Assembly: GCA_951812755.1 (NCBI GenBank)
Contig: OX638329.1
Coordinates: 1,039,339 to 1,103,338 of the forward strand
DNA from: an uncultured Latescibacterota bacterium
Lineage (GTDB): Bacteria > Latescibacterota > UBA2968
Length of the DNA stretch: 64,000 nt
Direction of reading: 5' to 3'
In this document: one piece after another, positions 24,352 through 44,700 of the stretch
Layout of the letters: every line of letters starts with the position of its first letter
How positions within the stretch are numbered: position 1 is the stretch's first letter
The notes under the pieces: model-generated
Database searches by the model: none
Told to the model about the DNA's origin: nothing
The model's input: only the letters and a program-made list of their open reading frames with translations
Made by a program: the position numbers and the translations under genes

Positions 24352-25755
24352 ATGAAATATTGCAATGCCATTTTTTGTTTTGTTCTTATCGGGTTGCTAA
24401 TTTTGCCATGTGACGCCGATCAATTGGTGCTGATGTCGCCACATTCAGATGAGATCCAAAACGAGTTTGAGTCGGCTTTTGTGGCTTTTTATCAAAAGAC
24501 CGCAGGACGAGATGTGCGGGTAGAATGGCTCGATATCGGTGCGGGCACGAGTGCGATTTTGCGTTATATCAAATCGGAATTTGGACGGTCGCCAGAGGGC
24601 ATTGGTATCGATATCTTTTTTGGCGGGGGCACCACGCCTTATGTGGATTTGTCTGAGCTTGGGCTGTGTCAACCCTATCGGTTGTCCGATGCCGCGCTCA
24701 ATCGATTGCCAGCGCAGATTGGGGGGGTCCCGCTTTACGATTCGGCCTATCGATGGTATGGCGCAACGCTGTCTGGTTTTGGCATTGTGTATAATCGTCG
24801 CGTGCTTGAAATTTTGAATTTGCCCATCCCCCAAACCTGGGCAGATTTGGGCGCGCCGGAATTGTTCTCGTGGGTTGGTTCGGGTGATCCGCGCAAGAGT
24901 GGCAGCGTTCACATGGCTTATGAATTAATTTTGCAGGCTTATGGCTGGGAAAAAGGATGGGAAGTGATTACTACAATGGGGGCCAATGTGCGAAATTTTG
25001 GACAAGGTGGTTCTTATGCCCCCAAAGAAGTTGCCGTGGGCGAAGTGGCTTATGGTTTATCCATAGACTTTTATGCATGGGCACAAGTTGCAGAAGTGGG
25101 CGATGAATACGTGGGCTTTGTGATGCCCGACAATTTGACCATTGTCAATCCCGATGGTATCGCCATATTAAAGGGTGCGCCAAACCTGGAGGTGGCACAG
25201 GTATTTTTGGAGTTTGTGATGTCCGATGCGGGGCAAAAGCTCTGGTTTTTAAAAAAGGGCGTGCCGGGCGGTCCTGTCGCGAAGCAGTTGAATCGATTTA
25301 CCGTATTGCCCGATCTATACACGCGCTATCAGAGTGATGCTGCGGTGACGTTAAATCCCTTTGAATGGCGTTCCGATTTGATATACGATGCCGAATTGGG
25401 CGGCGGGCGCTGGCGCGTGTTGAACGATTTGATCGGCGTGATGGTCATTGACTCACAGCGGGCATTGCAAGTAGCATGGAAGGACGCGATGACAGATGGC
25501 GTGTCAGAAGAAGAACGCAAGGCGCTATCATCTGTTCCCATTTCAGAGGCCGAAGCAGTGAAGTTGGAACAATTATGGGGAGATGCCGAGGCGCGCAATC
25601 GCACGATGGCTGATTGGACGGATTTTGTGCGCGACAAATACGGTGCTCGCGATTTGCCTTTGTCTGTGCGTGTCACCAATGCGATTACTCTGTTTTTCCC
25701 TATGGGTATTGCCGGTTGTGTGGTGGCTTATTTGTGGCGTTTGCGCAGGAACTAA
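24352..25755 (+). CDS. ABC importer solute-binding protein, iron/AfuA type, with C-terminal membrane anchor
   Basis: This is an exported protein of 467 residues with a signal peptide (about 1-22). It has a class II periplasmic-binding-protein fold of the AfuA/FbpA kind. Typical segments are the N-terminal strand QLVLMSPHSDEIQNEFESAF, FGGGTTPYVDLSELG and SGFGIVYNRRVLE. An unusual C-terminal extension ends in a hydrophobic helix and positive residues (AITLFFPMGIAGCVVAYLWR). This suggests the protein is tethered to the membrane rather than free in the periplasm. No lipobox is visible. It is followed by its ATPase and permease genes. The ligand (metal, sulfate-like anion or sugar acid) cannot be read from sequence. 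Confidence 0.87.
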   Translation: MKYCNAIFCFVLIGLLILPCDADQLVLMSPHSDEIQNEFESAFVAFYQKTAGRDVRVEWLDIGAGTSAILRYIKSEFGRSPEGIGIDIFFGGGTTPYVDLSELGLCQPYRLSDAALNRLPAQIGGVPLYDSAYRWYGATLSGFGIVYNRRVLEILNLPIPQTWADLGAPELFSWVGSGDPRKSGSVHMAYELILQAYGWEKGWEVITTMGANVRNFGQGGSYAPKEVAVGEVAYGLSIDFYAWAQVAEVGDEYVGFVMPDNLTIVNPDGIAILKGAPNLEVAQVFLEFVMSDAGQKLWFLKKGVPGGPVAKQLNRFTVLPDLYTRYQSDAAVTLNPFEWRSDLIYDAELGGGRWRVLNDLIGVMVIDSQRALQVAWKDAMTDGVSEEERKALSSVPISEAEAVKLEQLWGDAEARNRTMADWTDFVRDKYGARDLPLSVRVTNAITLFFPMGIAGCVVAYLWRLRRN

Positions 25756-25767
25756 AAAGGGTGCGAC

Positions 25768-26862
25768 ATGTTTGGGATTAAGCTGGAAAATGTGACCAGG
25801 CGTTTTGACAATGTTCTGGCATTGGATCGCATCAATTTGGAAGTTGAAGCGGGGGAGTTCTTTTTTTTATTGGGTCCCTCTGGTTGCGGCAAAACCACAT
25901 TGTTGCGCATTTTGGCGGGTTTTGATCAGCCCGAGAGTGGTCGGGTGTTTTTTGACGAGCGCGATGTGACTGCTGTGCCTCCGCACGAGCGCAATACGGG
26001 CATGGTGTTTCAGAATTATGCGTTGTGGCCTCACATGACGGTTTGGAAAAATGTGGAATACGGCCTTACGATGCGCAATATGCCGCAACACGAGCGCGAC
26101 CAAAAAGTGAAGCGCGCTCTGGAAATGGTTCAGATGAGTGGTTATGCCGAGCGGTCGCCCAATCAGCTTTCGGGGGGGCAGCAACAGCGCGTGGCACTGG
26201 CGCGGGCGCTGGTCATAGAACCGGGTGTTGTGTTGTTGGACGAACCGCTTTCCAATCTGGATGCGCGATTGCGATTGGAAATGCGCGAGCAGCTACAGGA
26301 TTTGCAGCGCACGTTGGATGTTACGATGATTTATGTGACACACGATCAAAAAGAAGCGCTGGCAATGGGGGCGCGCATTGCGGTTATGCAAATGGGCAAG
26401 GTGGCGCAAATCGGCACGCCGCGGGAGGTTTACAGACAACCGATCACGCGATTTGTCGCGGATTTTATTGGCGAGATCAATTTGATTTCCGGGGAGATAA
26501 AATCTGTGGAATCCGATGAGGTGGTTGCTACAACAGATGTGGGAGATATTCGCGGGCAGGCGGGATATGAGGGTATTCAGTTGGGGGATCGGGTGTTGTG
26601 CGCGATTCGACCCGAGGCGATGGATTTTCTTTCGGATGAAGTTGGGGCGACAGATAATGTCATTTTTGGGCACGTGCGGCGTGCGATTTATCTGGGAGAG
26701 GTCGAGCAATTTTTTGTTGAATTGGCGAGCGGTGATCAGATCAAACTGATTCAGTACGGCGCGATCCCGCAGCACGTACAACCCGGCGATGAGGTGCGAC
26801 TGGGATTTTCGCAGGTGGTCATGTTGCGCGATGAAGCGGAGGACCGAGATGAGGCGGTTTGA
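25768..26862 (+). CDS. ABC importer ATP-binding protein, FbpC/PotA type
   Basis: This is a 364-residue cytosolic ATPase. Walker A is GPSGCGKTTLLRIL (about residue 37). The Q-loop region is MVFQNYALWPHMTV, the signature LSGGQQQRVALARAL and Walker B VVLLDEPLSNLDARLR, with the H-loop Asp-His in YVTHDQKEA. A TOBE-type regulatory domain follows (about 285-360). It lies 12 bp after the solute-binding protein gene and overlaps the permease start by 14 bp. It energises the 26849-28534 permease. Confidence 0.94.
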   Translation: MFGIKLENVTRRFDNVLALDRINLEVEAGEFFFLLGPSGCGKTTLLRILAGFDQPESGRVFFDERDVTAVPPHERNTGMVFQNYALWPHMTVWKNVEYGLTMRNMPQHERDQKVKRALEMVQMSGYAERSPNQLSGGQQQRVALARALVIEPGVVLLDEPLSNLDARLRLEMREQLQDLQRTLDVTMIYVTHDQKEALAMGARIAVMQMGKVAQIGTPREVYRQPITRFVADFIGEINLISGEIKSVESDEVVATTDVGDIRGQAGYEGIQLGDRVLCAIRPEAMDFLSDEVGATDNVIFGHVRRAIYLGEVEQFFVELASGDQIKLIQYGAIPQHVQPGDEVRLGFSQVVMLRDEAEDRDEAV

Positions 26863-28534
26863 CCTCAATTGGCCCACGCTTGTTTTTTTGGTGGGGTTGA
26901 TCGTTTTTTTTGTTTTGTTTTTGTTTTATCCCCTGTGGTATGCCTTTGTGCAGTCGCTTGTGGTCAATGGCAGGTTCACGTTTGCGTTTTACGAATTGAT
27001 GGTGACGAGTCCAGTTTATCAAGAATCCATTCTCAATAGTTTTCGGCTGGGCATGATTACGACTATTGCGACTACGTTGCTCAGTTTGCCTCTGGCGTTT
27101 TTGCTGGTGCGATACGATTTTGCTGGCAAGGGGTTTCTCAATGGTTTGATTCTGGTGCCGATGGTTTTGCCCCCGTTTGTAGGGGCGATTGGCATGAAGC
27201 AGATGTTTGCGCGTTTTGGCTCCATCAATTTGCTGCTTCTGGATTTGGGACTTATAGATCAGCCTGTAGATTGGTTTGGTGGCGGTGGCTTTGTGGGCGT
27301 GGTGATTTTAGAGGTGCTGCATCTCTATCCTATTATGTATCTCAATGTGGCCGCTGCACTTGCCAATGTCGATCCGAGTTTGGAAGAGGCGGCGCGCAAT
27401 ATGGGTAGCAGCGGGTTTCGGCTTTTTCGCACGGTGACGTTTCCGCTGATGTTGCCGGGCTATTTTGCCGGGGCGATTATTGTTTTTATCTGGGCGTTTA
27501 CCGATTTGGGGACGCCGCTTATTTTTAATTATCGGCAGGTCGTGGCGGTCGAGATTTTTAATTCTATTGAGGATATTAACGAAAATCCGATGGCTTACGC
27601 GCTCGTTGTCTTTGTGTTGTTGTTGACGGTTTTTTTCTTTTATCTGTCAAAGGCGACGCTGGGCAATCGCCGCTATGAGATGATTGCGCGAGGGTATATC
27701 AGTTCGGGGTCGCGCCCTGCCTCTCGCGGGATGACTGTGTTGATTTACGCCGCGATGTTGTCGCTTACGGGTATTGCTCTGATTCCGCATATGAGTGTGT
27801 TTTTGACGTCTATTGCCGAGCGCTGGTTTATGGCTGTGTTGCCCCAGGAGACGACCGGGCGATTTTATACGATGGTTTTTGAACATCCGATGTCTCTGTC
27901 CAGTATTGAGATGAGTTTGATATTGAGTGTGTTGAGTACGACCCTGGATATTGTTCTGGGGATTGCTATTGCGTATTTGTTGACGCGCACCCGCATCCCG
28001 TATAAGGGCGTTTTGGATGCGATGGCGATGTTGCCCTTAGCCCTGCCCGGTCTGGTGCTGGCTTTTGGGTATCTGGCGGGGTATTCGGGCACTTTTTTAG
28101 ATGCGCGGCACTATCCCGTGCCGCTGCTGGTTATTGCTTATGCGGTGCGACGGTTGCCCTATATGGTGCGTGCGGCGTATGCGGGATTTCAGCAGACGAG
28201 TGTGACGCTGGAAGAGGCTGCTCAAAATTTGGGGGCTTCCCGGTTGCGCACGCTTTTTCAAATTACATTTCCGCTGATTTTAGCCAATCTGGTGGCTGGT
28301 GGTATTTTGTGTTTTGCATTTGCAATGCTCGAGGTGAGCGATAGTTTGATTTTGGCGCTTAAGGACGAATATTATCCCATCACAAAAGCGATTTACGCAC
28401 TTATGGGGCGTATGGCAGATGGCGCGTATTTGGCCAGTGCGATGGGTGTTTTTGGTATGGTGTTGTTAATTGTGAGTTTGTTTTTGGCCGGGCGATTTTT
28501 GGGCAGGCGCATGGGCGAGTTGTTCCGCGCCTAA
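26849..28534 (+). CDS. ABC importer permease, two fused halves (FbpB type)
   Basis: This inner-membrane permease of 561 residues has about twelve helices in two homologous halves. Each half has an EAA coupling loop: LEEAARNMGSSGFRLFRTV in the first and LEEAAQNLGASRLRTLFQI in the second. The two-half arrangement is the FbpB (iron) layout rather than the two-gene sugar layout. I chose the ATG at 26849, because GGAGG lies 6 nt upstream within the ATPase gene. The frame upstream of it is not used. The PL8 lyase gene starts 19 bp after the stop, probably in the same transcript. Confidence 0.93.
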   Translation: MRRFDLNWPTLVFLVGLIVFFVLFLFYPLWYAFVQSLVVNGRFTFAFYELMVTSPVYQESILNSFRLGMITTIATTLLSLPLAFLLVRYDFAGKGFLNGLILVPMVLPPFVGAIGMKQMFARFGSINLLLLDLGLIDQPVDWFGGGGFVGVVILEVLHLYPIMYLNVAAALANVDPSLEEAARNMGSSGFRLFRTVTFPLMLPGYFAGAIIVFIWAFTDLGTPLIFNYRQVVAVEIFNSIEDINENPMAYALVVFVLLLTVFFFYLSKATLGNRRYEMIARGYISSGSRPASRGMTVLIYAAMLSLTGIALIPHMSVFLTSIAERWFMAVLPQETTGRFYTMVFEHPMSLSSIEMSLILSVLSTTLDIVLGIAIAYLLTRTRIPYKGVLDAMAMLPLALPGLVLAFGYLAGYSGTFLDARHYPVPLLVIAYAVRRLPYMVRAAYAGFQQTSVTLEEAAQNLGASRLRTLFQITFPLILANLVAGGILCFAFAMLEVSDSLILALKDEYYPITKAIYALMGRMADGAYLASAMGVFGMVLLIVSLFLAGRFLGRRMGELFRA

Positions 28535-28553
28535 AAATGCAAAGGGGCTTGTG

Positions 28554-31500
28554 ATGAATTTACATAGATTGGCAATTATTTTTGCAGGGGGTATGATAGG
28601 CATGGTCAATGCGGCGATGGCACAGAATACACCATGGCGCTATGATTTTGAGGAAGTGTCGGAGATTTATCGGGTAGATGCAGGCAGTCAGGTTTCGCTT
28701 TCGACGAGACGTTATAAGGCGGGGCAGCAATCGCTCAAATGGACATGGCAAAATAACGGACGGCTTGTGTTCACGGATCCGGCAACACAACGCAATCGGA
28801 CGCTGAACGGATTTCGGGCGTGGGTGTACAACGAGGAGGCTCTCGATGAGGTGTTGACGTTTGGGTTTGGGACAGAGTCTGAATTGGCGGCAAATAATCC
28901 GCGTTATCAGTTTGAGTTTGGCTTGAATTTTACGGGCTGGCGGACGATGTGGATCCATTTGCAAGAGGATGCGCGGAATAATTCTTATACGGGTCCGAGA
29001 AATGGGCGGGTGACGGCATTTGATATTCGTGCGCCGAATAAGGGGGCTGTTTATCTGGATCTAATGGAATTGGTGGAAAGGAGTGACTGGAGGCGGTCTG
29101 CCGACGCGCAGGTTCCTTATGTCAATGCACGAAGAGAAGATCGAACCCGCGAATATCGATGGAGTCTGAACACATTACCGGGTTCGCTTCCTTCACAAAT
29201 CACCGATGAAGAATTACGGGCTTTTCAAACGATTGCCGAACGATATGAGGCCTGGATGTTCGGCGATGAGGTGAAGAATGACGAGCGGGAGCCAGTGAGG
29301 ATTCGGCTCAATGAACTTACAGCATACATAAGGCGCGGGCATCGCAATCTAACAGATTACGAGATTCGACGGGAGGATGACCGCATTTTGGGAAAGCCTC
29401 TGTTTGCGGCCCTATCGCCATACACGCCCTATTTTCAGAGTGTTTTTCAGAATGTTTTGTTGCGTCTGGTGCTGGATTATCGGTTGAATGGCAATAATGA
29501 GGCCAGAGGTCGCGTGATAGATCTCTTCGATTATCTGCACGATCAGGGATGGGCCGAAGGCAGTGGCCTCGGTGCGGTTCATCACGAGTTTTTGCGGATT
29601 GCGAGCTATGCGCATGCCGTGTATTTGATGCGTGATATTCTGGAGGATACAGAGCGGCTGGAACGGGAATTGGCGAGCTTGAGATGGTATAGCATGTTTG
29701 GCGAGTTGTATGAACAGACCTGGGATCCGGGTGCGAATGCAGATTTTTTGCGTTCGGTTGCGATCTATCGCTTGTTGTGTATTTTGATGATGGACGATAC
29801 GCCTGAGAAGGTAGCAAATATGCGTCGCTATGTGGCCTGGTTAAATAATGCGCTGGATATTGCGCCGGGGTGGTTGGATACGATTAAGCCGGATTTTGTG
29901 GGTTTTCACCATCGGGGTATTTACGCCAATGCGTATGCGCCCAATGCTTTTCACGTGGCTTCTGTGCTGGTGTATTTGTTGCGCGATACGCCTTTTTCTG
30001 TTGCGGATGATAAGCGCGATAATTTGAAGCAGGCGCTGTTGACGGCCAGAGTTATGACTAATACGTATGATATTTCGACGGCTATCGGTGGTCGTTTTCC
30101 GCTTAATACAACGGTAGCTGATGGGCTTTTGCCAGCGTATATGTATATGGCTTTGAGTTATCCTTCGGTGGATGCAGAACTGGCGGGTACGTTTATGCAG
30201 CTTTGGAGACCGGATTTGCAGTTGCTGATAGAAGGCCTGTTCGAACAAGTGGCTTCGCGGATTATGTATTTGCATACGCCGGGTGCGATGCAGATGATGA
30301 TGGATTTTGCAGAGGCGGGACATCTTCCTGTTGCTGCGCCTTCTGGGCACTGGACGTTGCCTTATGGCGCGTTGTCCATTCATCGGCGTGGGGACTGGAT
30401 GGTGAGTATGAAGGGGTGGAGCAAGTACGTTTGGGATTTTGAATCATCGGGTAGCGAAAATCCACTCGGTCGTTATTTGAGCTATGGTTCAATGCTGATT
30501 TATGGCAGTGGCGATCCGGTTGGCCGCGAGGCGAGTGGGATTGTTCGAGATGGGTGGGACTGGAGCATGTGGCCCGGTACCACGGTGATTCGCCTGAGTC
30601 ATGCGCAGCTCAACCAGAAGATGGACCATCGCAATTTTTCGGATGAGACTTTTGTAGGTGGGGTAAATATAGAGGGACAAAACGGTGTGTTTGCACTGAA
30701 GTTGCACGATACAGAACACAATACGAGTTTTCGGGCGGTTAAGACGGTGTTTTGTTTTGATGATGTACTTGTTTGTCTGGGGTCGGGTATTGAGAACGAT
30801 GACGGCGGGCATGCGACTGTGACGCCGCTGTTTCAGGCGGCTATATCCCAGGATCGTCCTACAGAGGTGAATGGGGAGCGCGTGCGTGCGATTCCCTATA
30901 CGTTTTCGGGGACGAAGGGGCAGACGACGTGGGTGATGGATTCATTGGGCAATGGGTATGTGATTCCGGATGGGGGCGACTTGCGGGTGCAACGAGAGGT
31001 GCAAGTTTCTGAGAATTATGGCAGAGATAGCGGGGGTACAGGGGCTTTTGAATTGGCGTATCTGGATCACGGTTCCAGACCTCAGGACAAGTCCTATGAA
31101 TATGTCGTGCTGGTTCAGAGGTTACCGGATAGGGTCCGCGCGTTTGCCAATGCACCCGAATATGATGTCTGGCGGCAAGATAGCAAGGCACATATTGTGC
31201 ATCATCGAGGGATGAAGATGACGGGTTATGCGCTGTTTGATACGGATGCGAGGCCGATGGATGGACCTGTTGTGGCTGTGTCTTTGCCGAGTGTGGTGAT
31301 GACCCGCGAGGTAGGTGATGAGTTATTGCTTTCGACTGCGGATCCGGATTTTGGATGGAGTTGGGAGATTCAAACGCCGCACCGGCAAGATGGCTCGTTG
31401 GTTGTCAATCAGGTGAGCGAGCCTCGAAAGGTAGTGGTGACAGTGCGCGGAAAATGGACTCTGGATCAGTCCTATGATCTGGTAGAGATTGTAGATGAGC

Positions 31501-31814
31501 GCGAGGATCAGACGGTTGTGGCGTTTATCTGTCAGGATGGCAAGAGCGTAGAGGTGAAACTGGTCAGGCCAGGCATCAGTGTCGCAAGTCTGGATTTTGA
31601 TGGGAATGGAGCGGTCGGGTTCACGGATTTTTTGCTTTTTACCGGCAAATTTGGTCTGTCGGAAGGTGATGCGGGTTTTGAAGCAAAATACGATCTGGAT
31701 GGCAATGGGATGGTAGGGTTCAGCGACTTTCTGATTTTTGCACAGGGATTTGGCAAACCAGTGAGTGGAAAACCCGTGGCTCTCCGGAATGGAGGAGACA
31801 GATTGGGGTCGTGA
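28554..31814 (+). CDS. secreted PL8 family lyase (chondroitinase-ABC-like) with C-terminal dockerin
   Basis: The protein has 1,086 residues. A signal peptide (to about AMAQ, 24) is followed by a jelly-roll carbohydrate-binding-like domain (about 25-185). A helical catalytic domain follows (about 200-590), with GFHHRGIYANAY (about 448) and IGGRFPL (about 511) matching the catalytic His/Tyr and Arg regions of PL8. A beta-sandwich domain (about 600-1000) includes DWSMWPGTTVI and FDDVLVCLGSGIEN. A dockerin with two calcium loops (DFDGNGAVGFTDFLLF and YDLDGNGMVGFSDFLIF, about 1010-1065) ends in GKPVSGKPVALRNGGDRLGS. PL8 enzymes cleave chondroitin, dermatan or hyaluronan by beta-elimination. The ATG at 28554 follows AAAGGGG. 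A close paralogue lies at 53271. Confidence 0.9.
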   Translation: MNLHRLAIIFAGGMIGMVNAAMAQNTPWRYDFEEVSEIYRVDAGSQVSLSTRRYKAGQQSLKWTWQNNGRLVFTDPATQRNRTLNGFRAWVYNEEALDEVLTFGFGTESELAANNPRYQFEFGLNFTGWRTMWIHLQEDARNNSYTGPRNGRVTAFDIRAPNKGAVYLDLMELVERSDWRRSADAQVPYVNARREDRTREYRWSLNTLPGSLPSQITDEELRAFQTIAERYEAWMFGDEVKNDEREPVRIRLNELTAYIRRGHRNLTDYEIRREDDRILGKPLFAALSPYTPYFQSVFQNVLLRLVLDYRLNGNNEARGRVIDLFDYLHDQGWAEGSGLGAVHHEFLRIASYAHAVYLMRDILEDTERLERELASLRWYSMFGELYEQTWDPGANADFLRSVAIYRLLCILMMDDTPEKVANMRRYVAWLNNALDIAPGWLDTIKPDFVGFHHRGIYANAYAPNAFHVASVLVYLLRDTPFSVADDKRDNLKQALLTARVMTNTYDISTAIGGRFPLNTTVADGLLPAYMYMALSYPSVDAELAGTFMQLWRPDLQLLIEGLFEQVASRIMYLHTPGAMQMMMDFAEAGHLPVAAPSGHWTLPYGALSIHRRGDWMVSMKGWSKYVWDFESSGSENPLGRYLSYGSMLIYGSGDPVGREASGIVRDGWDWSMWPGTTVIRLSHAQLNQKMDHRNFSDETFVGGVNIEGQNGVFALKLHDTEHNTSFRAVKTVFCFDDVLVCLGSGIENDDGGHATVTPLFQAAISQDRPTEVNGERVRAIPYTFSGTKGQTTWVMDSLGNGYVIPDGGDLRVQREVQVSENYGRDSGGTGAFELAYLDHGSRPQDKSYEYVVLVQRLPDRVRAFANAPEYDVWRQDSKAHIVHHRGMKMTGYALFDTDARPMDGPVVAVSLPSVVMTREVGDELLLSTADPDFGWSWEIQTPHRQDGSLVVNQVSEPRKVVVTVRGKWTLDQSYDLVEIVDEREDQTVVAFICQDGKSVEVKLVRPGISVASLDFDGNGAVGFTDFLLFTGKFGLSEGDAGFEAKYDLDGNGMVGFSDFLIFAQGFGKPVSGKPVALRNGGDRLGS

Positions 31815-31921: not shown

Positions 31922-31940
31922 ACGTTAAGTGGGATTAAAA

Positions 31941-32004
31941 ACCAGTCTAATTATCTCTTGGACGATATATCGTCCAAGAGGTGTAAAATTTAGTCTGGTT
32001 TTTA
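31941..32004 (+). terminator. terminator-like outer inverted repeat after the first PL8 gene
   Basis: ACCAGTCTAA and TTAGTCTGGT pair with one mismatch and enclose the palindrome A1. A T run follows. It may end the importer/PL8 transcript. It corresponds to 35396-35461 in region B. Confidence 0.5.
31955..31980. promoter_or_regulatory. perfect 26-bp palindrome, candidate regulator-binding site A1
   Basis: The arm CTCTTGGACGAT is mirrored exactly as ATCGTCCAAGAG around a central AT. A diverged version lies at 35415-35432 at the same distance from the conserved promoter-like sequence. Confidence 0.55.
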
Positions 32005-32170
32005 ATTTTATCTTAAGTAAAAATAATATCTTAAAAAATATAATTACTTGAATAAATTCACATTGGGATATATATTTTATATATAATTTTGGCTCAGGTA
32101 GCAATGAGCCTGTCTTGAACAGAGTTGGGCCTATCCGGTTTTCTTTTCCCATATCATAAGGTTGTTTGCT

Positions 32171-35100
32171 ATGATCAATCCACTTGATTGCACAGGCACC
32201 TGGCGGACTTATTCCATGGACAATGGCCTTCCGGGGCAACGCATTGAACACATCGCCGAAGACAGCGAGGGTTATCTCTGGTTCGCTACCTGGGACGATA
32301 GTGCTATCCGCTTTGACGGGGATGAATTTCAGACATTTACTCGACAGGACGGTCTTTGCGGTGACCGGGTTTTTGTCATTCACAAGGACAGTCAGGAACG
32401 GTTGTGGTTCGGTACAATGAATGGGGTCTGCTGGTACGACGGAGCAGCGTTCCACCATTTGGAGGACGACGGCATTGCAGACCGATCCGTGCAGTGCATC
32501 TACGAAGATCGACAGGGCCGTATATGGTGCGGAGGAACCCGTACTCTGGGATATTACGACGGCACAGCTTTCCACGACCTGATTCCGCTCTATCTGCAGC
32601 ACTACCAGCAGCCACCTTCTCCCCGGTGGAACAACTATTGTTGGGGCATCACCCAGGATGTGGAAGGTCACCTGTGGTTTGGCTTTAATTACCTCATCCG
32701 CTTCGATGGTGTATCCTTCCACCGCTACGAAGAGGAAGAGGGTTTTCCCCCGACCAGAGGTAACTACATATTAGGCCAGGACCATACTGGCAAGGTGTGG
32801 GTTGGTCTGCTCGGACCTCGAGATGGACTCTGGTACTATGCCGATGGTGCCTTCCATTCGGTTCGCGTAGATTTAGGTGCCAGACTGTACAATATTCAGT
32901 GCGACCGCGAAGGCCGAATGTGGTTTTGCACTTCAGAAGGAGTGATCTACCAGGATGGTGACGGATTCAGCAGGTTTATCCCTGCCGACGGTCTGCCCCA
33001 TCCCATAGTCAAAGCCGTGTTCCAGGATCGCGAGCATCAGTTTTGGTTCGCCACCTGGGGCGGCGTTGGGCTTTACGATGCACATAGTATCAACGTTTTC
33101 TATCCCAGTGAGGAACTCTCCAAAGATGAGAGTGAGATCTCGCAGATTGTGCAAGACCGGCGAGGTGATATATGGATTGGATATACGTCTCCCATTCTCA
33201 AACGCCTGACCACAAGTGCTGCCCACTTTGATGGCGAGCACTTCGCATTTTTAGGCCCCGAGCATGGCTTTAATATCAACAACTGTTTCGCCATACACGA
33301 GGATCACGACGGGGACCTGTGGTTTGGCAGCCGCAATGGCCTGTTCCGCCAGGAAGCACAAAAGCTTAAAAAAATAAGTACCGTTGCAGGTTTAGACAGA
33401 AGAGGTGTCAGTGCCATTGCTCAGGATTCGGAAGGGCAATTCCTTTTTGGCCATTGGGATAACGACCTCGGAACAGGTAAAAAAACGCTTTTGGCCAGTC
33501 CATTAAAGATCATTTATCAGCGGGGCGAGCAGTTTCAAACCATTTTTGTAGAGGAAAAAAAGCAAGATCCTTTCAACCGCATCGGCACTGTGATTGCCGG
33601 GCGCAATGACGAGGTCTATTTTTATCTTTCTCACCAAAATTTCTCAGATGTTGACAAGAGCTTTGGCCGCTGGCATCCCAAAGATGGCCTTAAATTTTAT
33701 GGGGTTGAAGATGGGCTGATAGACCACCAGGTCACTGACCTGCTGTTAGACCGCGCAGGAAACCTGTGGGTTGCTACTCAGTGTGGTCTCAGTTGCTTTG
33801 ATGGCAATGTTTTTCGCAACTTTACCACCGAAGACGGTCTGCAAAGCAATTACATCCGTTGCTTGTTCGAGGATCGTCGGGGACACTTATGGATTGGCAC
33901 AAATAGCGGCGTGATTCACTACGATGGTCAGCATTTCCAGACCATCAAGTCACCGCATATAGGACCGGTTTACAAGATACTCGAAGATCGCGATGGATCC
34001 TTCTGGTTTGGCACTGCCAAGGGGGCTATGGTACGCTACCGTCAACGGCAAGTTCCGCCCGGGATTCGCTTACTTCAAGTAATCGCCGATCAGGTCTATG
34101 AGAATCCCGAGAAAGGCATCCTATCTACAACAGAGCAGAATGTGATTTTCGAGTATAAGGGAATGAGTTTTTCCACCCATCCCGGTGACATGCTCTACAT
34201 CTATCGCCTAAAGGGACACGACCTCGACTGGCAGCCAGTGACTCGGGAGATGCGGGCCTATTATCGAGACCTGCTGCCGGGCGACTACACATTTCAGGTC
34301 AGGGCAGTAGATCGCGATCTCAATTACTCAGAGATGGCACAAGTGCAAATCACAGTAGAGCCGGATCCGCATATCGAAGCTCTGACAGCCGCACTCAACA
34401 GTCAGGAGGGCAACGAATTTATAGGTCATAGCGCGGTTCTAAACCAGTTTTTAATAAAGCTCAGAAAAGTGGCATCGATTGATATAACCGTGTTGATTAT
34501 AGGCGAGACGGGGGTGGGGAAGGGATTGGCTGCGCGGGCATTACACGCGCTGGGTCTCCATAGTGATGGTCCTTTTATTCAGGTCAACTGCGGTGCATTA
34601 CCTGAAACATTGATCGATAGTGAACTTTTTGGTCACGAGAAAGGGGCGTTTACCAGCGCAGTGTCTCGCAGGCTGGGCAAGGTAGAACTGGCCAAAGATG
34701 GCACACTCTTTTTGGATGAGATCGGCGATATGACCATGGAAACGCAGGCCAGGCTGTTGCGATTGATGGAAGAGGGCACGTTTGAGCGCGTTGGGGGTAG
34801 CGAAATACTGAAGGCGCAGACGCGCATTGTGGCAGCGACGAATCGCAATATCGAGGAGATGGTCAGCGCAGGTACTTTTCGCGAGGATCTCTATTACCGC
34901 ATCTATGTCTTTCCGCTCTATTTGCCTCCCTTGCGCGAGCGCAAGGAGGATATACCGGACTTAGCTGAATTTTTTAAGAATCGGATGGCAGCGCATTTGG
35001 ACAAGCAAATTGATCCTTTGACGGTAGAGGTTATAGAGGTGCTACAAGCCTACAATTGGCCTGGGAATGTGCGTGAATTAGAGCATACGATACAGCGAGC

Positions 35101-35344
35101 CGTAATCGTGTGCCAGGGTTCTCGAATTGCATTGGAGGATATCGGTCTCATAGACAATAATCCTCCTGTTTTTACAGACCGCGAAATGGTACCTTTAGCT
35201 GAATATGAACGCCTCTATATCCTGAAAGTGCTCAAAGCGACCAACTGGCAGGTAAAAGGTGCTCATGGTGCAGCGGCACTGCTGGGATTACCGCCTTCTA
35301 CCCTTTTCAGTAGAATAAAAAGACTGGGCCTTAAACGCCCTTAA
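32171..35344 (+). CDS. beta-propeller/Y_Y_Y sensor fused to sigma-54 AAA+ activator and Fis-type HTH
   Basis: This is a one-protein sensor-regulator of 1,057 residues with no signal peptide and no membrane helix. Residues ~1-640 are Reg_prop-type propeller blades (e.g. GYLWFATWDDSAIRFDG), as in the sensor part of hybrid two-component systems. Residues ~645-735 are a Y_Y_Y-type domain (SPGDMLYIYRLKGHDLDW-like). An AAA+ sigma-54 activator domain follows (~745-985). It has Walker A GETGVGKG (~777), an L1 loop GAFTSA (usually GAFTGA), Walker B GTLFLDEIGD, the arginine-finger region FREDLYYRI and sensor II NWPGNVRELEH. The C-terminus (~1010-1055) is a Fis-type helix-turn-helix. No kinase or receiver domain is present. 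ATG 32171 was chosen over the TTG at 32162, with AAGG upstream. It should act on the sigma-54 promoter just downstream. Confidence 0.9.
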   Translation: MINPLDCTGTWRTYSMDNGLPGQRIEHIAEDSEGYLWFATWDDSAIRFDGDEFQTFTRQDGLCGDRVFVIHKDSQERLWFGTMNGVCWYDGAAFHHLEDDGIADRSVQCIYEDRQGRIWCGGTRTLGYYDGTAFHDLIPLYLQHYQQPPSPRWNNYCWGITQDVEGHLWFGFNYLIRFDGVSFHRYEEEEGFPPTRGNYILGQDHTGKVWVGLLGPRDGLWYYADGAFHSVRVDLGARLYNIQCDREGRMWFCTSEGVIYQDGDGFSRFIPADGLPHPIVKAVFQDREHQFWFATWGGVGLYDAHSINVFYPSEELSKDESEISQIVQDRRGDIWIGYTSPILKRLTTSAAHFDGEHFAFLGPEHGFNINNCFAIHEDHDGDLWFGSRNGLFRQEAQKLKKISTVAGLDRRGVSAIAQDSEGQFLFGHWDNDLGTGKKTLLASPLKIIYQRGEQFQTIFVEEKKQDPFNRIGTVIAGRNDEVYFYLSHQNFSDVDKSFGRWHPKDGLKFYGVEDGLIDHQVTDLLLDRAGNLWVATQCGLSCFDGNVFRNFTTEDGLQSNYIRCLFEDRRGHLWIGTNSGVIHYDGQHFQTIKSPHIGPVYKILEDRDGSFWFGTAKGAMVRYRQRQVPPGIRLLQVIADQVYENPEKGILSTTEQNVIFEYKGMSFSTHPGDMLYIYRLKGHDLDWQPVTREMRAYYRDLLPGDYTFQVRAVDRDLNYSEMAQVQITVEPDPHIEALTAALNSQEGNEFIGHSAVLNQFLIKLRKVASIDITVLIIGETGVGKGLAARALHALGLHSDGPFIQVNCGALPETLIDSELFGHEKGAFTSAVSRRLGKVELAKDGTLFLDEIGDMTMETQARLLRLMEEGTFERVGGSEILKAQTRIVAATNRNIEEMVSAGTFREDLYYRIYVFPLYLPPLRERKEDIPDLAEFFKNRMAAHLDKQIDPLTVEVIEVLQAYNWPGNVRELEHTIQRAVIVCQGSRIALEDIGLIDNNPPVFTDREMVPLAEYERLYILKVLKATNWQVKGAHGAAALLGLPPSTLFSRIKRLGLKRP

Positions 35345-35345
35345 G

Positions 35346-35359
35346 GGCGAAATTTCGTC
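35346..35359. promoter_or_regulatory. dyad GGCGAAATTTCGTC, candidate activator site B0
   Basis: The 10-bp core CGAAATTTCG is a perfect palindrome with flanks like those of the other sites (GG..TC). It lies about 205 bp upstream of the predicted transcription start. Confidence 0.4.
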
Positions 35360-35395
35360 TAATAGTCATAACTATTTGATAATAAGTAGCATACG

Positions 35396-35461
35396 AGCCA
35401 GACTGATTATGTCTGGGGCGATGTATTGTCCCTTAATATAAAATTCAGTCTGGCTTTTTTG
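35396..35461 (+). terminator. terminator-type hairpin after the activator gene
   Basis: A perfect 11-bp inverted repeat AGCCAGACTGA / TCAGTCTGGCT encloses an inner hairpin and is followed by a T run. It probably ends the activator transcript. Confidence 0.7.
35415..35432. promoter_or_regulatory. dyad GGGGCGAT-GT-ATTGTCCC, candidate activator site B1
   Basis: The eight-base arms pair with two G-T positions. This is the region B counterpart of palindrome A1. Its centre is about 133 bp upstream of the predicted sigma-54 start, an ordinary distance for enhancer-binding proteins. Confidence 0.5.
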
Positions 35462-35530
35462 TTTTCAATAATAATTCTATCCTTTTAAAAAATAATACTT
35501 TATGAATATAATTGTTTGGGTCTATTCACA

Positions 35531-35547
35531 TTGGCACGCAAATTGCA
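35531..35547 (+). promoter_or_regulatory. sigma-54 promoter of the giant gene
   Basis: TTGGCACGCAAATTGCA matches the -24/-12 consensus TTGGCACG-N4-TTGCA at every fixed position, with GG at 35533-35534 and GC at 35545-35546. Transcription would start near 35557. It lies directly downstream of a gene for a sigma-54 activator. Confidence 0.9.
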
Positions 35548-35719: not shown

Positions 35720-38700
35720 ATGTTTAAGCTGTTATTCCGTATGCCCTCATTGGCTGCCTTGATCTTTACAATTATATTCACCACTCTGTTGGTGCAATCT
35801 TTTTCTCTTTCCTCACAGACAAATAGTTTTTCCCTCTCTCTGGATTTGGACAGTTCCGAAGGTGACCAGGCTGTCCAGTCTCTCGATGTATCCCCCAATC
35901 AGGATGTTTCTATTCAGATTTTTGGCACAGATATTCAGTCTGCGAGTAGTCTTTCCGTTCGCTTTGAATACGATATGAATCAGGTTGTTTACGAAGGGTT
36001 TGATGCGGGTAATGTATTGCCAAATCCCGATGTGCGTGTAGAAGAGGGCACAAATCCTCCTACTGTCTCAGACGATAGCACAAGCACTATTTTACCCCAC
36101 AACGAGACAAGCTTTGTAGAGATCACTATAGCATCTATAGGATCTGCAACAGTCAACAGTGGTTTGATTGGTACATTGCATCTTCGCACAACAGATGCCT
36201 TTTCACAGACCGAGATTTTATTGGTGCGTGCCGAACTTGGGCGAGGTGGGCAAGTTGAAAGCGCGATGTTGAATTTACATGTAGAGTTACAAATCGCAGG
36301 GGCACCTTCTCCAGATTTTGACGGGAGTGGGTTTGTGGATTTGCAAGACCTTTTGCTGTTCAAAAAGGGGTTTGGCTCTCGTGTGGGACAAGAGCATTAT
36401 GAGGTCAAATACGACCTGAATGGCGATGGTGCGATTGGGGTAGAGGATTATTTGATTTTTATCCAGAGCTATGGCAAATGGGTGAATCGCGCACCGGTCT
36501 TCACGTCCAAGACTTATGTGACATACTTTATAGATGAGAACACGCCGGGGGGTGAACCGATAGGTGATCCCATCTCTGCCACGGATGCTGACGGCAATAT
36601 TGTGACCTACCACCTCAGTGGTACGGATGTAGATCTTTTTGCCTTTGACGCAGGCACGGGTCAGCTTCAGACAAAGGAAGGCATCACGTATGACTATGAA
36701 CATCGGACGACCTACTCCGTAATTGTTGAGGCGAGCGATGGGCAGGGGGGGACAGCGCGTCTTTTGGTGATCATCAAAATTAACGATTTGAAAGAACCGC
36801 CTTCTTCGTCACCGTCGAACTTTCTGGTCATTCCGGACAACGAGTCCCTCACCGTCCACTACGCTGCGGTGCCAGATGAGCGGGGGAGGCCGCCAGTAAG
36901 GGGGTATCATGCTGAGATTCGCAGGGGAGAGAAGGGTCCCTGGGGAACCCGCAAGACGATCTATGGTCGTACGAATACGTCTGTTTACTATCATAAAATA
37001 GATGTGCCTCGGTATCAAAACAGCTTCCTGGAAAATGGTCAATTATATCAGGTTCGAGTTCGCGCCTATAATTCTGATGGTGCAAGTACCTGGTCTGAGC
37101 CTGTTTCGGGCATACCAGTCTATACGCCACCCAAAGAGGAACCGAAGCTTGTGCAGTTTCAGGATGGCTATGCGATTATTGATCTGTCCCCTGTCACTGG
37201 TGAAGGGGGTAAAATCGTCGTCACGCAAGCGGATCTTCCTGCTACTATCCCGCAGGAGGAGGTTGAGGGGGTCTTCGCAGAAGGCGTCGTGGTTGCGGTT
37301 TCCAATGCTCCGGATGTACCTGCCTCTGCAGGCTTTATCCTTCCTGTTAGAGCATCACTCTTTGATATAGCTCTAAAGGCTCGGATTAATAACCGAGATG
37401 TTGATATCGGCGATGTATTGAGGGCACCTGTGGAGATTTGTTTGTCTGTGCCTGAGGATATTTTTGATCCGGTCATTGTCCATTACGATGATGGGGCGAG
37501 TGCCTGGGAAATGCTTGAGAGGCAGCGCGTAGATAACGATGTGGTCTGTGGTTATACCGATATGTTCTCGCTCTTTGGGATTGGCGTGAGTGTCAACCGC
37601 GCGCCAGTGGCGGTGGGAAGGTTTGAAGCGCAGATGCTGCGGGTGGGTGATGAAGGTGTGACAATAGATGTATCGGGCAAGTTTTCTGATCCTGATAACG
37701 ATGTTTTGACCTATGAGGCCGTGTCGAGTGATGAAGCTGTTGCAAAGGTGGATGTGTCGGGTTCTGTGGTGACGCTCACGCCTGTGGCTGAGGGCACAGC
37801 GACGGTTACTGTGACTGCGCGAGATGCAGCAGGTTCGAATCAGACTGCGGAGCAGACCATAGCTGTGACGATAAACAAGGCGGATGTGAAACTGAGCTTT
37901 GGTGGTGCGACAGTGTCTGCTCAGACTTATACGGTCGGGAGAGAGATTGACGATATCCAATTGCCCGAAGCGACGGGTGGCACGGGTATAATTGGCTATA
38001 CGCTCACGCCAGCACTGCCTGACGGTCTGGTGCTGGATGGAGAGACGCGTACGATTAGCGGCACGCCGACGGTTGCAATAGAGGCAAGGGATTATAAATG
38101 GAGAGCGACAGATGCGGACGAAAACACGATCGAACTGCTATTCTCCATCGCGGTGGAACCGGCCAATCGGGCACCAGTCTTCACCGACATATCGCCGCTC
38201 AGTGTGCGTGAGAACAGCACAGGAGTTGTGGTCACAGTCAGTGCAACAGATGCCGATAGCGATGATAGTATTACAGGCTATGGCATTGCTTCAGGTGCAG
38301 ATGGAGATCAGTTCTCTATTATGGCAGCAACTGGCGTGTTGAGCTTCACGATAGCACTGAACTATGAGATGCCTACTGATGTAGCAGTGACAGATCCAGC
38401 CAATGCTGCAAATAACAATGAATACATCGTGTATGTCACTGCAACTGGAGGCGTGGATGCAAGGGCACTGACAGCAAGAGATACGCTGACCATCTCTGTG
38501 ATGGATGTGACTGAGGCACCGGGTAAACCAGCCATGCCCGTGTTGTCAGATGCCACATTGAACAGTCTGAAGATCAGTTGGACAGCCCCTGCGAACACGG
38601 GTCCTGTGATCACGGCTTATGATGTGCGTTATATCCACAGTAGTGCCAGTGATGCAGATAAGGCAGATGACGATAACTGGACGGAGGAGGAGGATGCCTG

Positions 38701-41700
38701 GAGGATTGGTGGTGGAGCGCTTGAATACACGATTAGTCCGTTGGACCCCAACACTTCTTACGATGTGCAGGTGAGAGCGGAGAATACAGAAGGAGAAAGT
38801 GACTGGTCAGATACACTTGAAAAGATGACATCAGCCAATGTTGCCCCCGTGATCACGAGTGTATCGGCATTTAGCGTGAATGAGAACAGCACAGGGGATG
38901 TTGCCACGGTCACAGCAACAGATGCCGATGATGATGACGACATTGAGTCTTATGGCATTGCTTCAGGGGCAGATGGGGATCAATTCTCTATTGTGGCAGC
39001 GACAGGTGTGTTGACGTTCACGGCTGCACCGAACTTCGAGATGCCCACTGATGTGGAGGTGATAGACCCATCCAATGTAGCGAACAACAATGAATATATC
39101 GTGTATGTCACGGCAACGGGAGGAGAGAATGCACGAGCGTTGACATCAAGTGATACGATCACAGTGACCGTAACAGATGTGAATGAAGCACCGGTCTTCA
39201 GCAGTGCAGCGTCCGTTGATGTGTCTGAAAATAAGCAAGCTGTCGGCACGGTGGTCGCCGAAGATGTGGATGCAGATGACAGCATCACGGGCTATGCGCT
39301 TACCGGTGGAGCAGATCAAGCCCTGTTTGAGATCACGAGTGGGAACGTGTTGCGTTTCACGACTGCACCAGACTTTGAGTCTCCTGCCGATGCGTTAAGC
39401 ACAACGCCGTCAAATGCTGATGCTAACAACGAATACATCGTGGAGGTCACGGCGACGGGAGGTGCGGGTGCTCGGACGATGAGTGTGGTGCAGACGATCA
39501 CGGTGACTGTAACGGATGAGAATGAAGCGCCGATCTTTGCTACTATCTCACCGCCGTCAGTGAGTGAGAACAGCACAGGGGCTCTTGTGACGGTGGTTGC
39601 GAGTGATGAAGATACGGCTGACAACATTGAGAGTTATGGCATTGATACCAACGCTGCCGATGGGTCACAGTTCTCTATTGATACATCTACGGGCGTGTTG
39701 ACGTTCACGACAGCGCCGAACTTTGAGGATGCGAAGGATGTTGCGGTAACAGACCCTGCCAGTGGTGCAGGTGATAATGAATATATCGTGATCGTCACAG
39801 CGACAGGTGGAGAGAATGCACGTGCACTGACGGGGAGAGATACGATCAAGGTGACTGTGAAGGATGTGGATGGGGAAGCACCGGGTAAGCCTGCTATGCC
39901 GACGCTAGTACAAGCAACCGTGAACAGCCTGAAGATCAGTTGGAGTACACCGACGAACACAGGACCCCCTATCAGTTCTTATGATGTGCGCTATATCCTG
40001 ACCAGCGATGATGAGACAGATGATGATAATTGGACAGAGAAGGATGATGTCTGGACAAGTGTTACTGGCGGAGATCTTGAATACACGATAGATGGTTTGG
40101 ACCCCAACACTCCTTATGATGTGCAGGTGCGTGCGGAGAATGCGGAGGGAGAAAGTGATTGGTCAGATACACTTGAAAAGATGACGACAGCTAATGTTGC
40201 CCCCGTGATCACGAGTGTATCAGCCTTTAGCGTGAATGAGAACAGCACAGGGGATGTTGCCACGGTCACAGCAACAGATGCAGATGATGATGACAACATA
40301 GAAAGTTATGACATTGTTGCAGGTGGTGATGGGGCACAGTTTGAGATTGTTGCATCTACTGGTGTGTTGAGTTTTAAAGCCGCACCGAACTTCGAGGATC
40401 CAAAGGATGTTGCCTTTACTGATGCTACCAATTCAGCTAATGACAATGATGCCAACAATAATGAATACATCGTGATCGTGTCTGCAACAGGTGGAGAGAA
40501 TGCCCGAGCACTCACAGCAAGCGATACGATCAAGGTGACAGTGATAGATGTGAATGAGGCACCGGTCTTCAGCAGTGCAGCGTCCTTCGACGTGGGTGAA
40601 AATAAGCAAGCCGTCGGTACGGTGGTAGCTGATGATGTGGATAGTGAGGACAGTATCACGGGCTATGCACTTACCGGTGGAGCAGATCAAGCTCTGTTTG
40701 AGATCACGAGTGGGAATGAGTTGCGTTTCACGACTGCACCAGACTTTGAATCTCCTGCCGATGCGTTAAGCACAACGCCGTCAAATGCTGCTGCTAACAA
40801 CGAATACATCGTGGAGGTCACAGCGACAGGAGGTGCAGGTGATCGTGAGTTGACAGCCGTGCAGACGATCACAGTGACTGTGACGGATGAGAATGAGGCA
40901 CCGGTCTTTGCGACAGTCTCACCGCCGTCAGTGAGTGAGAACAGCACGGGGGATATTGTGACAGTCAGTGCGAGTGATGAAGATACGGCTGACAATATTG
41001 AGAGTTATGGCATTGATACCAGCGTTGCCGATGGGTCACAGTTCTCTATTGATACATCTACTGGTGTGTTGACGTTCACGACAGCACCGAACTTTGAATC
41101 TCCTACCGATGTGGCGGTTTCAGACCCAGCCAATGCCTTAGAGAATAATGAATATATCGTGATCGTTACAGCGACAAGTGGTGCGGATGCGCGTGTGCTG
41201 ACATCAAAAGATACACTTAAGGTGACAGTGATGGATGTGGATGGGGAGGCACCCGGTAAGCCTGCTACGCCGACGCTATCACAAGCGACAGTGAACAGCT
41301 TGAAGATCAGTTGGCGTGCGCCAACGAACACAGGTCCTCCTATCACAGCTTATGATGTGCGCTATATCCTTACCAGTGCAGATGAGACAGATGATGATAA
41401 TTGGACAGAAGTGACAGATGCCTGGACGAGTGGTGATGGTGCGCTTGAATACACGATTAGTCCGTTGGATCCCAACACTTCTTACGATGTGCAGGTGCGA
41501 GCAAAGAGCGATGAAGGGATGAGTGATTGGTCAGATACGCTTGAAAAGATGACCTCAGCCAATGTTGCCCCCGTGATCACGAGCATATCAGCCTTTAGCG
41601 TGAATGAGAATAGCACAGGGGATGTTGCCACGGTCACAGCAATGGATGCCGATGATAGTGACGACATTGAGTCTTATGGCATTGCTTCAGGGGCAGATGG

Positions 41701-44700
41701 GGATCAATTCTCTATTGTGGCAGCGACAGGTGTGTTGACGTTCACGGCTGCACCGAACTTCGAGATGCCCACTGATGTGGTGGTGATAGACCCATCCAAT
41801 GTAGCGAACAACAATGAATATATCGTGTATGTCACAGCAACGGGAGGAGAGAATGCACGAGCGTTGACATCAAGTGATACGATCACAGTGACCGTGATGG
41901 ATGTAAATGAAGCACCGGCCTTCAGCAGTGCAGCGTCCTTCGATGTGTCTGAAAATAAGCAAGCTGTCGGGAAAGTGGAAGCTGATGATGTGGATAGTGG
42001 GGACAGCATTACGGGCTATGCACTTACAGGTGGGGACGATCAAGCTAAGTTCTCACTTGTGCCAGAGACAGGTGCCTTGAGTTTTAAGGCCGCTCCTGAC
42101 TATGAGGTTGCAGGGGATTCGGATACAGACAATGCCTACCTTGTGGAGGTCACAGCGACGGGAGGTGCAGGTGCTCGGGCAATGAGTGTGGTGCAGGCGA
42201 TCACAGTGAGTGTGCAGGATGAGAATGAGGCGCCGGTCTTTGCTGCTGTCTTACCAATCAGTGTGAATGAGAACATCACAGGTGATATAGTGACAGTCAG
42301 TGCGAGTGATGAAGATACGGCTGACAATATTGAGAGTTATGGCATTGATACCAGCGTTGCCGATGGGTCACAGTTTTCTATTGATACATCTACGGGCGTG
42401 TTGACGTTCAAGGAAGCCCCGAACTATGAGGATGCGAAGGATGTAGCCTTTATCGATGCTGCCAATTCTGACAATGACAATGCAAAGGAGAATAATGAAT
42501 ACATCGTGATCGTCACAGCGACAGGTGGGACGGGTGATCGGGTACTAACAGCGAGCGATACGCTTAAGGTGACGGTGACAGATGTGGAAGGGGAAGCACC
42601 TGGCAAGCCTGCTACGCTGACGATAGCAGAAGCAACATTGAACAGCTTGAAGGTGAGTTGGAGTAAGCCGACGAACACAGGCCCTGCGATCAGTAGTTAC
42701 GATGTGCGGTACATCCTTACCAGTGCGAGTGCAGACGATAAGGCAGATGATAGCAACTGGACAGAAGTGACAGGTGCCTGGACGAGTGGCGCGCTTGAAT
42801 ATACGATCAGTCCATTGCTTCAGAATACAGAGTATGATATACAGGTTAGAGCAAGAAATGCGGAAGGGATGAGTGACTGGTCATCATCGGTGACAGGGAC
42901 GACAGAGCAGAATGTGGCGCCAGTCATTACGAGTGTATCATCGTTCTCAGTGGATGAGAACATCACGACAGCGACAACGGTTGGCACAGTGGCAGCCACA
43001 GATGCCGATGAAGGTGATGACATCACATATGGCATTGCTTCAGGTGCAGATGGGGATCAGTTCTCTATTGTGGAAGCGACAGGTGTGCTGACGTTCAATG
43101 CATCCCCGAACTATGAAGACCCCAGGGATGTAGCGTTTAATTATCCTGATAATACTGTCAATGCAGCGGAGAATAATGAGTATATCGTAATCGTCACAGC
43201 GACAGGAGGTACAGGCGCACATGCACTGACAGCGAGAGATACGATCACAGTGACAGTGATAGACGTGACTGAACCGCCAGGTGTGCCTGATGCGCCGATG
43301 ATAGCAGAATCAACATTTAATAGCTTGAAAATAGAATGGAGAGCGCCGACAAATACAGGTCCTGATATTAGTAATTATTATGTGCGCTATATCCTGACCA
43401 GTGCCAGTGATGATGATAAGGCAGATGATGATAATTGGACGGAGGATCCTGATGCGTGGAAATCAGATACAAACACGGACCTCACCTACACCATATCACC
43501 TCTGCTTCAGAGTACTTCTTATGATGTGCAGGTTAGAGCAAAGAGTGATGAAGGGATGAGTGATTGGTCAGATACAGTGGTAGGGACGACAGGGCAGAAT
43601 GTGGTGCCTGTGATCACGAGTGTATCGGCATTTAGTGTGAATGAGAACAGCACAGGAGATGTTGCCACGGTCACAGCAATGGATGCAGATACGGAGGACA
43701 GCATCACGGGGTATGGCATTGCTACGGGTGCAGATGGAGATCAGTTCTCTATTGGATCATCGACAGGTGTGTTGACGTTCAATACTGCTCCCAACTTTGA
43801 AGATCCCAAAGATGTAGCGGTTACCAACCCTTCTAATGATGCGGAGGATAATGAATATATCGTATTTGTCACGGCGATGGGTGGTGCAGATGCACGAGCG
43901 CTGACGGCAAGAGATACGATCACAGTGACCGTGATGGATGTGGATGGGGAAGCACCAGGCAAGCCTGATGCACCGACAGTATCGGCAACGTTTAACAGTC
44001 TGACGGTGAGTTGGAGTAAGCCGACGAACACGGGTCCTGACATTAGTTCTTATGATGTGCGCTATATCCTGACCAGTGCCAGTGATAGTGATAAGGCAGA
44101 TGATAGCAAGTGGACCTTGCAGGAGGATGCGTGGAAATCAGATACCAACACAGATCTTACCTACACCATATCACCTCTGACACAGGACACTTCTTATGAT
44201 GTGCAGGTTAGAGCAGAGAGTGATGAAGGGATGAGTGATTGGTCAGATACAAAGGTAGGGACGACAGTGCAGAATGTGGCCCCTGTGATCACGAGTGTAT
44301 CGGCATTTAGTGTGAATGAGAACAGCACAGGGATCATTGCCCTGGTGAGTGCAACAGACGCAGATAATGAGGACGACATCACAGGGTATAACATTGTTGC
44401 TGGCGCTGATGGGTCACAGTTTGAGATCACGTTCTCCAGTGTGGCACAGACGGGTGCGTTGATCTTCAAAGCCGTACCGAACTTTGAAGTGCCTACTGAT
44501 GTGGCGGTTACCAACCCTTCTAATGATGCGGAGAATAATGAATACATCGTGATCGTTTCTGCCACAGGTGGTGCAGATGCACGAGCGCTGACGGCAAGAG
44601 ATACGATCACAGTGACCGTGATGGATGTGGCTGAACCGCCTGGCAAGCCTGATGCACCGACGGTTGTGGCGATGTTTAATAGCCTGAAGGTGTCCTGGAC

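Follow-up and report, generated by a model that had tools for sequence, protein, structure and literature searches.

A probable sigma-54 promoter module between a propeller-type activator gene and a giant gene in an uncultured Latescibacterota bacterium

Results

Organization of the locus

The window, the whole stretch of 64 kb that was analysed, corresponds to C1:1039339-1103338 of a single-contig genome of 6,530,187 bp. The gene for a sigma-54 enhancer-binding protein (EBP) is followed by a giant gene, and the two are flanked by genes for PL8 lyases (Table 1). The DNA between the EBP gene and the giant gene holds a promoter module with the order dyad enhancers, hairpin with T-run, AT block and -24/-12 core. 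Members of the PL8 family act on chondroitin and hyaluronan; the match to the chondroitinase-AC model is far below the cut-off. The N-terminal domain of the giant can be read as cohesin-like. The Rfam scan of the window gave no match, and no relatives were found among viral contigs. The relatives bear names of Candidatus Latescibacterota MAGs, and a few are labelled as Gemmatimonadota. The MAG names, together with the accessible parts of the literature on sponge-associated Latescibacterota (PMC12993501), suggest that the lineage probably lives in sponges.

Table 1. Features of the locus, with the permease-class promoters found elsewhere in the genome
Feature	Position	Strand	Basis or remark
ABC importer genes (binding protein, ATPase, fused permease)	24352..28534	+	also upstream of the EBP in L136
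First PL8 lyase, before EBP gene	28551..31814	+	
Twin module before EBP gene	31940..32079	+	alignment with giant promoter region
Twin module, hairpin arms	31940-31950 and 31990-32000	+	
Twin module, perfect dyad GGACGATATATCGTCC	31960-31975	+	
Twin module, AT block	about 32019-32045	+	
Twin module, decayed core TTGGGATATATATTTTA	32063-32079	+	-24 CAC and -12 GC lost
EBP gene, 1057 aa: two Reg_prop propellers, Y_Y_Y, AAA+ sigma-54 activator (GAFTSA), HTH_8	32171..35344	+	
AAA+ sigma-54 interaction domain of EBP	34421..34918	+	Pfam PF00158, residues 754-919, E 1.9e-63
Second, weaker UAS-like dyad GGGCGAAATTTCGTCT	35345..35360	+	right behind EBP stop codon
Inverted repeat AGCCAGACTGA / TCAGTCTGGCT, then T-run to 35460	35396..35460 (arms 35396-35406, 35445-35455)	+	
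Candidate enhancer (UAS) dyad GGGGCGATGTATTGTCCC, in hairpin loop	35415..35432	+	116 bp upstream of -24 element
Conserved AT-rich block AAAAATAATACTTTATGAATATAAT, upstream of -24	35488..35512	+	alignment A1, 31 promoters
Sigma-54 -24/-12 promoter core TTGGCACGCAAATTGCA	35531..35547	+	pattern searches and model R1
Giant gene (5838 aa) with signal peptide, dockerin-like repeat and numerous cadherin, fn3 and leucine-rich repeats	35720..53233	+	
Second PL8 lyase	53271..56570	+	ATG 37 bp past stop of giant
Permease-class promoters	G000:C1 476241, 494138, 510750, 520319, 2823960, 4697059, 5403478, 5908356		L039-L042, L094, L113, L121, L127

The promoter core

The preliminary description had taken the core for a sigma-54 promoter that fits the -24/-12 consensus at every fixed base, and this is borne out: TTGGCACGCAAATTGCA is the only match without mismatches on either strand of the window, with GG at -24, GC at -12 and the spacing TGGCAC-N5-TTGC all present. 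The predicted transcription start (35557/35558) is 11-12 bases past the -12 C and precedes the ATG of the giant gene at 35720. The absence of rpoN, which had been named as evidence against such a promoter, is not what the genome shows; one complete copy is present (508-aa ORF, PF04552 200.9 bits), with a C-terminal box that reads ARRTVAKYRD. Taken together with the comparisons below, the core is very likely to be a true sigma-54 promoter.

The 15-mer TGGCACNNNNNTTGC (TGGCACN5TTGC) is found 103 times in the 6.53-Mb genome, against 11 times for the pattern read backwards, and the strict 17-mer TTGGCACNNNNNTTGCW (TTGGCACN5TTGCW) 48 times, with 0 occurrences of its reversal. When 101 of the 103 sites were read in context, 14 fell within a 452-aa transposase-like ORF that is present in several copies, and other genes contained several more; one exact 15-mer each is internal to the EBP genes of L137 and L141. 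The 15-mer alone is therefore no proof of a promoter. The sigma-54-like 15-mers of the multicopy transposase-like ORF (L084, L089, L095-L097, L107, L115, L128) are coincidental.

A strict site is also situated 54 bp before a PspA-like gene (L086, G000:C1:1710565), a gene known as a sigma-54 target from other organisms. A second class of sigma-54 promoters precedes genes for FtsX/MacB-type permeases and differs from the module of the propeller EBPs: most of its members have in common an upstream sequence around CAAATTTTCATAACT...TTGTAAAACATAGA, and the AT block is not seen in them.

Structure of the promoter module

The alignment of 31 promoters (A1) shows the AT block conserved together with its flanks. 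The block looks like a possible IHF/HU-type site, and four proteins with an HU/IHF fold are encoded in the genome. Further upstream, the region 35390-35470 folds at -31.9 kcal/mol into the hairpin, which is shared by co-directional and divergent promoters of the EBP family. Because the hairpin and the T-run also precede divergent promoters, a role as mere terminator of the EBP gene was rejected and the structure is read as an insulator as well; from its sequence, the terminator-like hairpin may both end the EBP transcripts and insulate the promoter. The arms of the hairpin were also considered as the enhancer. They are far apart and are not dyads, and in our judgement the short dyads fit better.

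The position of the candidate enhancer dyad GGGGCGATGTATTGTCCC agrees with that of the dyads of related promoters. The weaker dyad GGGCGAAATTTCGTCT aligns with GGGCTATATATCGTTT and GGGCGGTATATAGTCT of two twin modules. By the strict criterion (arms of at least 6) no dyad passes in the gap between the EBP and the giant, GGGCGAAATTTCGTCT included, and the automatic choice of the best dyad in this gap is a different AT-rich stretch. Across the family, 29 dyads with arms of at least 6 were counted in the regions before 39 sites, against a mean of 5.3 and a maximum of 12 in 50 dinucleotide shuffles, the 39 regions including related and thus non-independent sequences. The half-sites vary between paralogs (GACC, AACC, GATC, GACG, CCACG), and pairs of dyads are often spaced 20-21 bp. 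Outside the genus, in L252, L257 and L261, the EBPs of which have the GAFTGA loop, tandem CCAC(G)...(C)GTGG dyads 21 bp apart stand before the site, with up to four in L261.

The region upstream of the EBP gene contains a twin of the module. When the giant-promoter region, the EBP-upstream region and the region of the closest paralog were aligned, the two regions of the window showed dyads, hairpin, AT block and core arranged alike. The core has one mismatch before the EBP of the closest paralog and is decayed before the EBP of the window.

The activator protein

The claim that the upstream neighbour encodes a sigma-54 activator with all its elements stands for the PF00158 domain, the Walker A motif and the helix-turn-helix. 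The contact loop has GAFTSA in place of GAFTGA. Across the family the loop variants are GAFTSA, GAFTGA, GAFTNA and GAFTTA. According to the accessible parts of Francke et al. (PMC3162934), the position of the second G of GAFTGA can be occupied by Asp, validated in FlgR, and by Ser, as putative only. Perfect sigma-54 sites are located beside GAFTSA members, which argues for a functional loop. The Fis-type helix-turn-helix (PF02954, residues 1012-1054, E 4e-4) has 20.5 bits and is thus below the cut-off of 22 bits; helices at 1009-1051 of the AlphaFold model (mean pLDDT 85) match its position. With Foldseek, the N-terminal part found the HTCS sensors BT3049 and BT4663 (top hits 3v9f, 4a2l, 4a2m) and the C-terminal part NtrC1, LuxO and FleQ. 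Hybrid two-component sensors were also returned by phmmer. A search of the genome itself for Reg_prop gave 0 matches, but its controls gave none either, and the result carries no information.

The EBP has neither a signal peptide nor a membrane span, and none of 60 EBPs contains a 19-residue window with a hydropathy of at least 1.6. The sensor should therefore be cytoplasmic. The gene family is expanded in the genomes of the same genus. One paralog (L071:8222-10905) is split into two overlapping ORFs of 564 and 330 aa, with an intact divergent promoter module; the split is due to a frameshift or a sequencing error.

Pairing of activator genes and promoter sites

The pairing was studied in 60 EBPs, read with 700-bp flanks, from motif-filtered loci deduplicated by the last 200 residues; the set excludes for example L069 and the split L071, and members at contig ends are counted. 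Within 700 bp of the EBP, 30 of the 35 same-genus members have an exact site that is directed away from it. By origin, the site was found for 8/8 EBPs of this genome, 22/27 of other genomes of the genus and 6/25 outside the genus, while the reversed pattern gave 0/60 in the same test. No exact site pointing away within 700 bp was found for five of the 27 EBPs of other same-genus genomes and 19 of the 25 outside the genus. For one further same-genus EBP the sole site points towards the EBP. Sites 3' of the EBP are located 161-343 bp past the stop codon (median 208, n=25). The pairing of EBP and module is, judged from these sequences, conserved in the genus. The propeller motif was absent in 18 examined ORFs from loci of other phyla in a scan of 84,980 species.

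Homologous loci bear on the targets of the promoter. A look for the same promoter before homologous giant genes had been proposed, and L134 bears it out: the order there is EBP, exact site, giant, the first 400 residues of this giant being 45% identical to those of the giant in the window. For the closest giant paralog (C1:5079052, 83% within the first 300 residues), a site immediately before the giant is missing, and the module with one mismatch precedes the EBP gene instead. The inclusion of the second PL8 lyase in the circuit is supported by L136, where the order is ABC importer, EBP, exact site, PL8 lyase; here the exact site directly precedes a lyase with 69% identity to the second lyase of the window over 1024 columns. 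The giant and the second lyase of the window likely share a transcript, given their arrangement.

The regulon

A sequence-only model of 63 positions (R1), made from the 31 promoters, identified 30 modules in the genome of the window at E <= 2e-4 (31 at <= 0.01), of which 9 were in the training set and 21 were new. The local circuit proposed for the giant is thus supported but not unique, its promoter being one of about thirty such promoters in the genome. Some of the modules have no adjacent EBP.

Matches to R1 at E <= 0.01 were found in 16 of 64 genomes of the phylum, including 10 of the 11 genomes of the genus. The exception, G038, is a single-contig genome with a listed completeness of 99% and has 0 R1 modules and 0 full-length propeller EBPs; strict sites against control number 6 vs 1 in G038, 20 vs 0 in G033 and 24 vs 0 in G034. 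The N-terminal domain of the giant has 36 matches in G038 in spite of the missing modules, so this domain family is independent of such control. G038 offers a natural comparison genome. Among the 15 genomes with a full-length EBP (at least 1400 bits) the module was present in 13, as against 3 of the 49 without (Fisher). This comparison is circular in part, since R1 derives from promoters of the genus and relatedness is ignored; G038 and the outside-genus genomes G049, G022 and G042 are the parts of it outside the R1 training.

A hydrophobic N-terminus was found in 19 of 29 first genes behind modules, the starts being picked by hand and two modules sharing one gene, as compared with 27 of 135 background ORFs from other loci. 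Among 20 target proteins scanned, many have WD40, LRR, fn3, PKD/FGE-sulfatase, spondin or dockerin-like domains, and the remaining ones include three response regulators and one multicopper oxidase. The module targets thus appear to be mostly exported, eukaryote-like repeat proteins.

Discussion

The explanation that we consider quite likely is that the core is a working promoter which drives the giant gene, and probably the second PL8 lyase too, and is switched on by the EBP encoded upstream. As far as it can be read from the sequence, this local circuit is well supported. From the features of the locus we infer a scheme in which the EBP is a soluble one-component activator with a double-propeller/Y_Y_Y sensor of HTCS type joined directly to the AAA+ and helix-turn-helix domains. 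The protein would bind GRCGATRTATYGTC-type dyads in the hairpin loop, perhaps those behind its own stop codon, as well as the perfect dyad upstream of its own gene, and the DNA that separates enhancer from promoter would be bent at the AT block. A cytoplasmic ligand would fill the propeller, whereupon the AAA+ ring would remodel the sigma-54 RNA polymerase, and the second lyase would be transcribed probably by read-through across the 37 bp. The ligand would most likely be an oligosaccharide released by the PL8 lyases, a guess made from the fold of a heparin/heparan sensor and from the neighbouring lyases. A cytoplasmic sensor would need an importer, for which the ABC importer genes upstream are candidates. 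Paralogs with different dyads would control further exported, eukaryote-like proteins through parallel circuits.

It is unlikely that the promoter is genuine but activated by one or more other EBP paralogs, possibly with cross-talk, while the neighbouring EBP acts elsewhere. The genome has about ten EBP paralogs, and modules without an adjacent EBP mean that action at a distance happens. The distances of the helix-turn-helix and of the UAS did not covary significantly (partial Mantel, r 0.12, 72/1000 permutations), in a test that left out four outside-genus members and used a poor automatic choice of dyads. Against this, GGGCGATGTATTGTCC (35416-35431) of the giant promoter differs from the perfect dyad GGACGATATATCGTCC before the neighbouring EBP in three positions, all transitions, a resemblance equalled in 5 of 20000 mononucleotide shuffles of the gap, whereas promoters beside seven other paralogs of this genome are at least four mismatches away. 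The EBP and the site are moreover kept together across the genus.

That the site is a relic, copied along with the EBP gene as part of the module and no longer driving the giant, is very improbable. The loss of -24 CAC and -12 GC in the twin core and the lack of a site directly before the closest giant paralog are what such a history would leave, but where the twin shows decay, TTGGCACGCAAATTGCA is perfect at every fixed base, and R1 gives the giant promoter (35488-35547) 53.1 bits, rank tenth among the 30 modules of the genome. A chance match in AT-rich intergenic DNA, with the giant using another promoter, has a practically negligible probability, since the exact 15-mers inside the transposase-like ORF and inside two EBP genes are outweighed by the genome-wide excess of the strict pattern over its reversal and by the conserved block and flanks of the aligned promoters.

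The activation of the giant promoter by the neighbouring EBP would have parallels in known systems. NtrC-family EBPs of groups 2 and 3 (DmpR, NorR, NifA) share with the EBP of the window the order regulatory domain, AAA+, helix-turn-helix and the upstream dyad enhancers, and they often have an IHF site, to which the AT block has been likened here. The EBP of the window differs from them in its double propeller and Y_Y_Y regulatory domain, in the GAFTSA loop and in the large expansion of the family. The accessible part of an EBP review table lists RR, PRD, PAS, V4R, ACT and GAF as regulatory domains (PMC7175178), and a propeller/Y_Y_Y domain is absent from what is accessible of this table and of the domain list of PMC12316311. 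A literature search of partial coverage, most subscription journals being outside it, turned up nothing on propeller-type sigma-54 activators.

The HTCS sensors of Bacteroides (BT4663, a sensor of heparin/heparan sulphate, and BT3049) have in common with the EBP the Reg_prop propellers, the Y_Y_Y domain and neighbouring genes for the degradation of polysaccharides. Unlike them, the EBP has no membrane span, histidine kinase, receiver or AraC output, only AAA+ and HTH_8 following the sensor in the chain; its sensor would be cytoplasmic and is fused to a sigma-54 AAA+ motor, whereas the HTCS sensor is periplasmic. Control of the bacterial exterior has been ascribed to sigma-54 (Francke et al. 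2011, PMC3162934, accessible parts). The targets here also seem to be mostly exported; compared with that account, they are WD40, LRR, cadherin and fn3 repeat proteins and a PL8 lyase, in Latescibacterota.

With slightly more doubt than confidence, we suggest that these probably sponge-living Latescibacterota may have turned the polysaccharide sensor of HTCS into soluble sigma-54 activators, at least ten per genome and each with its own enhancer type, and that these parallel, insulated switches may select giant eukaryote-like surface proteins and glycosaminoglycan lyases according to the host sugars inside the cell. If true, this would add a new type of sensor for enhancer-binding proteins to those in the accessible part of the review table (PMC7175178), and a sensor of membrane phosphorelays would be working as a cytoplasmic one-component regulator. 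The about thirty promoters, the single model of 63 positions and the named family of regulators provide a regulatory handle on the eukaryote-like proteins of uncultured bacteria, and the enhancer types and recognition helices of the many paralogs offer a way to study how duplicated activators stay apart.
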